Shown here piece after piece: positions 11,935-12,657 of a stretch of 32,569 nt of DNA. The stretch is taken from assembly GCF_024345475.1 (NCBI RefSeq), contig NZ_JAGQBE010000026.1:1-32569 (forward strand), in the 5' to 3' direction. The notes beneath the pieces are model-generated. The model worked only from the letters and a program-made list of their open reading frames with translations, made no database searches and was not told the DNA's origin. The position numbers and the translations under genes were made by a program. Every line of letters begins with the position of its first letter. Within the stretch, counting starts at the first letter, position 1. The stretch is from Cyanobium sp. T1B-Tous. GTDB taxonomy: Bacteria; Cyanobacteriota; Cyanobacteriia; PCC-6307; Cyanobiaceae.

Positions 11935-12657
11935 CTAGCCCTGGGCTGCGGTGCTGAGCATGGCCCCCACCGTGGCCAACAACACCCGAGCCAACTCGAG
12001 CGAACCGATGGCGATGAAGCCATACCAAACCCGCTGGGCCCAGGCCGGCGGCTGGCCCTGCACCCAGGTGGGGGACCAGCTGGAGGCCCCATCCCCCGCG
12101 GGGGCACGCCGAGCCGTCATCTCGCGCCAGTAGCTGTCGTAGCGCGGGGCCTGCTGGTTGAACGGACGCTCGCCCACCGCTTGGCCCGCCAACACCCGGG
12201 AGCGCTGGTAGGGAACCTGGTCGTCGCCAAAGGCCTGCAGGTATTCGTCGGAATCGAGCAGGGCATCCACAAAACCGGGCAAGCCCTGCTCAGCGATCAC
12301 GATCGACCAGGCGATGCGCTCGGCATCCCCATGCACCGGACGCCCCAACACACGGCCAACCACCTGCTCGACCACCCGATAGTTGCTGTTGCAGCGGTAG
12401 AAGTCGTTGCGGAACTTGTCGGAGAGCAGCAGGCCGCGGATGAACTGACGGGTGCTGATCTGACCGGTGCGCAGCTGGGACTCCAGCACGACCTCCCGAT
12501 CCACCTTGAAGGCGTGAAAAAAGATCTGGCGGTAGGCCTGCTCGATCCGGGCGTTGCAATCGACCGACTGACGGGGGTTCTCCTCGGTGCCGGGCATGAA
12601 GTTGGCCACCCGGGCATTGTTGGTGAGGGGCTTGGTCGCCAGCAGGGGCAGGGCCAT
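11935..12657 (-). CDS. cpcL: Phycobilisome rod linker of the CpcG/CpcL type with hydrophobic C-terminus
   Basis: This 240-residue protein has one Pfam-type phycobilisome linker domain at about 22-150: the core YRQIFFHAFKVDREVVLESQ, then LRTGQISTRQFIRGLLLSD and KFRNDFYRCNSNYRVVE. The start MALPLL is typical of CpcG rod-core linkers. The C-terminal tail is not the usual core-binding extension: after WAQRV (about 205-210) comes a largely hydrophobic stretch, about residues 211-234, interrupted by E221 and R224. CpcL (CpcG2) proteins have such a membrane-anchoring helix and form rod-only phycobilisomes tied to photosystem I. The CpcL call is inference from the tail; CpcG is the alternative. The gene is isolated from any cpc operon within the window. 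Confidence 0.8.
   Translation of the reverse strand: MALPLLATKPLTNNARVANFMPGTEENPRQSVDCNARIEQAYRQIFFHAFKVDREVVLESQLRTGQISTRQFIRGLLLSDKFRNDFYRCNSNYRVVEQVVGRVLGRPVHGDAERIAWSIVIAEQGLPGFVDALLDSDEYLQAFGDDQVPYQRSRVLAGQAVGERPFNQQAPRYDSYWREMTARRAPAGDGASSWSPTWVQGQPPAWAQRVWYGFIAIGSLELARVLLATVGAMLSTAAQG

Follow-up and report, generated by a model that had tools for sequence, protein, structure and literature searches.

The rod linker encoded by a cpcGII gene of Cyanobium sp. T1B-Tous ends in a predicted membrane helix that looks like a module carried by several kinds of picocyanobacterial protein, and at the centre of this helix are a glutamate and an arginine which, across its relatives, are kept or lost only together. 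The shared anchor and its coupled pair are the new and most interesting result of this analysis; a literature search, with most subscription journals outside its scope, found no earlier description of the shared anchor. The linker itself is probably anchored in the membrane and acts in the manner of CpcL, docking a core-less rod to a membrane complex, most likely photosystem I (PSI). Its gene lies in the 32,569-nucleotide stretch of DNA that was analysed (the window), with the following features.

11935 to 12657, minus strand: cpcGII / cpcL-like gene for a tail-anchored rod linker (240 aa, ATG start)
12202 to 12564, minus strand: PF00427 linker domain, residues 32-152 (Pfam profile match)
11944 to 12045, minus strand: predicted C-terminal helix, residues 205-238 (AlphaFold2)
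11956 to 12027, minus strand: hydrophobic part of the helix, residues 211-234
11995 to 11997, minus strand: codon of E221, partner of R224
11986 to 11988, minus strand: codon of R224, partner of E221

Linker domain and C-terminal tail

The first-pass annotation had described a CpcG-type linker domain followed by a hydrophobic stretch in place of a core-binding extension, and both halves of this description are borne out. Like a CpcL, the 240-aa protein has an N-terminal CpcG-type PF00427 domain: a profile search matches residues 32-152 with an E value of 3.2e-39, and in a PDB search its single-domain matches comprise CpcL chains, rod-core linkers and further linkers of phycobilisomes. With 145-172 bits, under cut-offs of 420-440, the four NCBIfam CpcG models cover residues 1 to 181-185. 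Phycobilisome linkers are found throughout the 50 of 141 Foldseek matches listed, none of these 50 being specific to the C-terminal tail.

Tail hydrophobicity was taken as the best 19-residue Kyte-Doolittle mean. The 149 loci gave 151 distinct single-domain linkers, and 145 were analysed after removal of six fragments or near-copies: 74 anchored linkers lie at 1.31-3.06, 70 CpcG-type linkers at 1.26 or below, and the last is a frame-shifted gene. The tail of the 240-aa linker, at 1.70, is only moderately hydrophobic. AlphaFold2 (39-row alignment) predicts it as one single helix, residues 205-238, with mean pLDDT by block of 79, 90 and 92 over residues 201-230 and of 74 over residues 231-240 (76 overall). 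The tail is conserved amongst kin, W211 and G218 each being kept in 63 of the 64 CpcGII rows of the family (Cyanobiaceae), and it has no trace of the GFPQ...VPYRS pattern of family CpcG tails. With this hydrophobicity split, this missing pattern and this predicted helix, the protein carries the hydrophobic C-terminal helix of a CpcL instead of the core-binding extension of a CpcG, and it is very probably anchored in the membrane.

A second rod-core linker, with its hydrophobic tail packed into the allophycocyanin core as in a CpcG variant of hemidiscoidal phycobilisomes, would suit the sister relationship of the linker domain to family CpcG (see below) and the single sighting of CpcGII in a phycobilisome fraction, that of WH8102, noted by Six et al. 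in 2007 (PMC2246261). The absent CpcG tail pattern and the one long predicted helix speak against such a protein, as does mass spectrometry of phycobilisome bands in the same study, which as reported there detected CpcGI and did not detect CpcGII; this reading is very unlikely. The bands were cut from WH5701, WH7803, WH7805, RCC307 and RS9916, the sentence on CpcG speaks of 'all four strains', and the mpeF product is reported as undetected in RS9916 and the mpeG product as undetected in RCC307. Absence of CpcGII from the bands is to be expected if the protein stays with the membrane, and could alternatively be caused by low expression. A membrane location may be the plain reason why CpcGII and the MpeF and MpeG products sought by Six et al. 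are missing from isolated phycobilisomes.

Descent of the linker domain and of the anchor

A tree of the linker domain (88 rows, 191 columns, tail excluded) places the family's tail-anchored linkers in one group (28 rows, 99/87), which joins family CpcG (together 100/94). Of the 22 tail-anchored linkers from other families, 20 make up a clade of their own (99/95), with L058 and L121 elsewhere. A second tree, of 83 rows, adds two solved CpcLs and omits seven rows that are long or broken. Here the CpcL of Synechocystis (8hfq) lies inside the other-family anchored clade (21 rows, 100/95), and 9wd5, the other solved CpcL, is part of a heterocyst-type CpcG cluster (14 rows, 100/100). The solved CpcLs themselves fall into two clades, 9wd5 too being outside the Synechocystis CpcL clade, and the 240-aa linker is in neither, standing as sister to Cyanobiaceae CpcG. 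A single clade of the family's anchored linkers and the Synechocystis-type ones was rejected under C20 (AU p 0.0016; 0.0017 with the solved CpcLs) and not rejected under plain LG+G4 (AU p 0.067), for a group that left out L058 and L121 after inspection of the tree and was thus partly named post hoc.

The earlier proposal that the protein is a CpcL is upheld in its CpcG-type domain and its membrane-type tail. It is not supported for descent, as the trees, and the AU test under C20, put the domain outside the Synechocystis CpcL clade, and the trees place it beside Cyanobiaceae CpcG. Nor does the protein belong within the CpcG1 clade or bear a core-binding tail: it is sister to family CpcG and its tail differs. 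Judged by the descent of its linker domain, the 240-aa protein is a picocyanobacterial CpcGII. CpcL and CpcG clusters have been reported to be intermixed, with tails that may come and go by domain reorganisation (PMC10053587), and the mixed descent seen here is a new instance of that published idea rather than a new idea.

The tail was compared with known CpcL tails separately from the domain. Tail types were defined after the tails had been read, type A being those with the E/R pair and type B those without it. Against the tails of Synechocystis-type CpcLs (type i), type A gives an hhalign E value of 8.6e-5 (probability 60%, 9% identity); none of 300 column shuffles is as good, the observed score being 24.8 and that of the best shuffle, not far below, 21.8. 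Against type-ii CpcL tails, 49 of 300 shuffles are as good. An hmmsearch with the E/R-tail profile raises four of 14 type-i tails and none of eight type-ii tails above the 99th percentile of shuffled decoys, and with the type-B profile none of the 14 type-i tails is above decoys (type-B tails 0/20). The 26 other-family tails pooled give no hhalign match (E 0.12), and ExxR is in none of the 26 within the last 32 residues. A tail-only phmmer search of the PDB, where 8hfq_n (249 aa) is long enough for the tail, has no match up to an E value of 10.

In L121, the kin of the solved CpcL 9wd5, a domain of the CpcG cluster is followed by a type-ii tail, which scores 27.7 bits where the highest of 60 decoys reaches 9.0, and within the Cyanobiaceae tail type and linker tree disagree, on a tree with few well-supported branches. 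Most simply, the anchor and the linker domain may have had partly separate histories, through fusion or gene conversion; site likelihoods are patchy along the linker domain, which would fit gene conversion. The 240-aa protein would be a mosaic of a CpcG-like linker domain of the family and a tail that weakly resembles that of Synechocystis-type CpcL.

These comparisons bear on the docking partner. The CpcLs of Synechocystis and Anabaena, which have a PF00427 domain and a hydrophobic tail, are reported to be tied to PSI (PMC10322944, PMC11165356, PMC9415938). A membrane-anchored linker that docks rods to some other target (PSII, NDH-1 or the bilayer alone) would be in keeping with the lack of a match to type-ii tails, the type of the Anabaena-type kin L121, with the lack of ExxR in the other-family tails, and with an anchor common to phycoerythrin-type linkers and a free peptide (see below). 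The nearest relatives of the tail are nonetheless Synechocystis-type CpcL tails, and it is with PSI that CpcL is connected in print, so that docking elsewhere is unlikely and PSI is, by analogy, a likely partner. In the CpcL-like mechanism, the PF00427 domain would fill the membrane-proximal hexamer of a phycobiliprotein rod, as the solved CpcLs suggest; in CpcL phycobilisomes the linker domain is described in the rod's membrane-side hexamer (PMC10322944). The helix of residues 205-238 would cross the thylakoid membrane and attach the rod to a membrane complex, most likely PSI, with no allophycocyanin core involved. In mid-membrane, E221 and R224 lie a helical turn from each other and would be joined by a salt bridge within the helix or would together contact the docking partner.

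A coupled residue pair in a shared anchor

E221 and R224 lie at the centre of the predicted helix. Amongst the 64 CpcGII rows of the family, both are present in 31 and neither in 32, and the remaining row is a broken gene. A wider set that adds other anchor-bearing proteins comprises 92 tails, three of which are not alignable; in the 89 that are, both residues occur in 40, neither in 49 and one alone in none. In a control over 166 column pairs, all of which show each state in no fewer than 15 rows, E/R is the sole pair without a mixed row, and the next best has nine. In CpcGII rows without the pair, R is replaced by G in 28 of 32. The paired positions hold E/R in five and H/G in five of ten phycoerythrin-type linkers, and H/G in ten free peptides.

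Because the two residues are kept or lost only together, it is somewhat probable that E221 and R224 are a physical pair, bridged within the helix or jointly contacting the docking partner. The rows are kin, and the E/R label on the CpcGII linker tree makes at least five changes on the best tree with only two forced by well-supported branches, which is too few for a sign test. Half of the tails are without E/R, so the pair is dispensable for anchoring as such. The first-pass annotation had seen the Glu and Arg in the middle of the stretch as a hint of a protein contact; their coupling strengthens that hint, or the case for an intrahelical pair. They are two candidate residues for how the rod recognises its photosystem.

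A profile of the tail alone matches 110 of 201 Cyanobiaceae genomes, on cpcGII or on other anchor-bearing proteins; the figure is 93 of 131 for good genomes and nine of ten for the genomes of the linker's own genus. One genome of that genus (G158) is 99% complete and has seven phycobiliprotein matches and none to the anchor profile. Beyond CpcGII, the profile matches two other kinds of sequence in presumed marine genomes, short ORFs and larger proteins of about 300-320 aa, and 20 of these loci, ten of each kind, were examined.

L269, L270, L273, L274, L278, L279, L282, L283, L286, L287: phycoerythrin-II-type linkers with the anchor
L271, L272, L275 (minus strand), L276, L277, L280, L281, L284, L285, L288: free 57-59 aa protein

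The anchor forms the end of all ten large linkers (E 5e-11 to 3e-6). A 2022 paper on the pigment types of marine Synechococcus may discuss MpeG. PF00427 is present in the one large linker scanned. The rod cluster encodes a two-domain linker of 548 aa, with whose amino half the two large linkers that were compared share 52% and 46% identity. This match fits the description of MpeF and MpeG by Six et al., in which both are relatives of the amino end of MpeD and have genes outside the rod cluster (PMC2246261), and the large anchored linkers fit the MpeF/MpeG type, names that are presumptive here.

The ten short ORFs match at E 9e-14 to 2e-6, run for 57-59 aa from a conserved ATG and contain little beyond the anchor. 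Their codon differences over 45 pairs number 384, 159 and 957 at positions 1, 2 and 3, and with changes mostly in the third position the short ORF behaves like a gene. The free peptide may be Unk6 of Six et al. (57-61 aa), but no phycobilisome gene was recognised beside the L271 copy.

A class-wide search of 195 genomes had 18 matches at E 0.01, eleven of them Cyanobiaceae; the seven others comprise four loci that were examined, a match in G202, which is the CpcL of L089, and two further matches outside these. Two of the four loci (L289 and L290, family f23) encode another, divergent type of linker that ends in an E/R tail and has a counterpart in the Cyanobiaceae (L293). The other two (L291 and L292) are not linkers, so the weak class-wide matches include chance ones. 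A further tail-anchored CpcG, with a diverged tail without E/R, is present at L131, L134, L139, L142 and L143, and two of these five tails align to the anchor profile; this copy is perhaps the CpcGIII of Six et al.

By these sequence matches, the anchor looks like a module: CpcGII, phycoerythrin-II-type linkers and a fourth linker type carry it, and it also occurs by itself as a protein of 57-59 aa. It is a tentative and rather doubtful extension that one picocyanobacterial membrane plug, marked by W, G and an all-or-none E/R or H/G, serves on all of these, with core-less phycoerythrin-II rods docked to a photosystem and a free peptide that could hold or block the docking site. In ocean Synechococcus, light may then pass straight from core-less phycoerythrin rods into a photosystem; should PSI be the docking site, a second, core-free antenna would have to enter the energy-balance models of these organisms.

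Place in the genome and relation to known systems

The genome, a 2.71 Mb draft assembly of 122 contigs, has ten PF00427 matches: five on contig C2 (rod linkers, one truncated), one on C90, one on C42 and three in ApcE (C101). The C90 match is an ordinary CpcG of 254 aa beside a CpeS-family gene, and the cpcG paralogues found are this ordinary CpcG and the one tail-anchored paralog. The cpcGII gene stands on C42 amongst housekeeping genes (named by eye), and cpcBA is on C2. The claim that the gene lies away from the cpc operon is thus right for this genome and some relatives, but in others cpcGII is in the cpc cluster, beside a CpeT/CpcT-family gene, as in Synechococcus WH5701 (L221), G064 (L156) and other relatives. 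The WH5701 copy lies between CpcT- and CpcC-like genes near cpcBA, and in a genome of the same genus (G081, L178) the order is CpcT, small gene, cpcGII, cpcB, cpcA. Still other relatives have cpcGII beside hisI (L157, L160, L181), and the hisI site of the present genome (L188) is without it. On C2, the interval between cpcB and the small gene with CpcT has no cpcGII and contains two other features.

L039:14638-15399: integrase-core (transposase-type) ORF
L039:15887-16279: truncated PF00427 linker

Together with the cpc-cluster copies in relatives, this interval points to a cpcGII that was relocated, perhaps with the element's help. A Baltic study reports cpcGII copies whose phylogenies conflict (PMC4139726). 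Beside a glucose-6-phosphate dehydrogenase gene, the genome also encodes an FNR-L, a protein of 390 aa that combines a CpcD domain with an oxidoreductase NAD-binding domain; FNR-L is reported on CpcL rods elsewhere (PMC6479007).

Damaged copies occur in other genomes. In G102 (L145:992-1831) a type-A CpcGII with a frame-shifted tail is near an intact type-B copy in the same cluster, and one G180 copy (L013, left out of the trees) has an in-frame stop near its start and an open frame from position 1594. In G076, the tail profile matches a similar separate frame. In-frame stops in L030, L032, L034, L036 and L038 were considered as gene breaks and are simply where shorter tails end normally. A paralog that is unexpressed or in decay would account for the damage in G102 and G180 and for the lack of a tail-profile match in G158 alongside its phycobiliproteins. 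Here, however, the gene is intact and conserved in the family down to W211 and G218, and a gene called cpcG2 in WH7803 is reported to change its transcript level with nitrogen (PMC9430850); decay is most improbable, and a membrane-anchored linker that works like CpcL remains the preferred reading.

By kinship and context, the 240-aa linker is the "CpcGII" of marine Synechococcus as named by Six et al. (PMC2246261). The WH5701 CpcGII (L171/L221) belongs to the same family group, resembles the 240-aa linker in its kind of tail and holds the cpc-cluster position that the paper gives for it. In both cases cpcGII is a second cpcG besides cpcGI, and the ordinary CpcG of the present genome adjoins a CpeS-family gene as cpcGI does there. 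The two differ in position, as cpcGII is a rod-cluster gene in that study, and in relatives here, but is outside the rod cluster in this genome. In the main text of Six et al. the word 'hydrophobic' is absent and 'transmembrane' appears once, for unk3. A cpcL has already been claimed in Cyanobium sp. NIVA-CYA 375 by homology or analogy (PMC13342260), and a PSI role of the second cpcG of freshwater picocyanobacteria was assumed earlier by analogy (PMC10161378); the available portions of these two papers carry no analysis of tail, E/R pair or shared anchor, all three of which are given here. In Acaryochloris RCC1774, three of the four CpcG-like proteins are reported to resemble CpcL in their hydrophobic C-terminus (PMC6002478).

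The CpcL of Synechocystis PCC 6803 (PDB 8hfq_n) shares the CpcG-type domain and the hydrophobic tail, and its type-i tail class is weakly but detectably similar to the Cyanobiaceae tail; in contrast, its linker domain belongs to the other clade, and the tails of its kin L078 and L081 are without ExxR. PDB chains 9wd5_1, 9w4j_1 and 9w7k_1 we take to be the CpcL (CpcG3) of Anabaena PCC 7120. That CpcL has the same architecture as the 240-aa linker and is tied to PSI, but its domain lies in the heterocyst-type CpcG cluster and the tail of its kin L121 is of the other type. The phycoerythrin-II linkers MpeF and MpeG, to whose description the proteins of about 300-320 aa found here conform, differ from CpcGII in being another linker class, and these proteins bear the CpcGII anchor.
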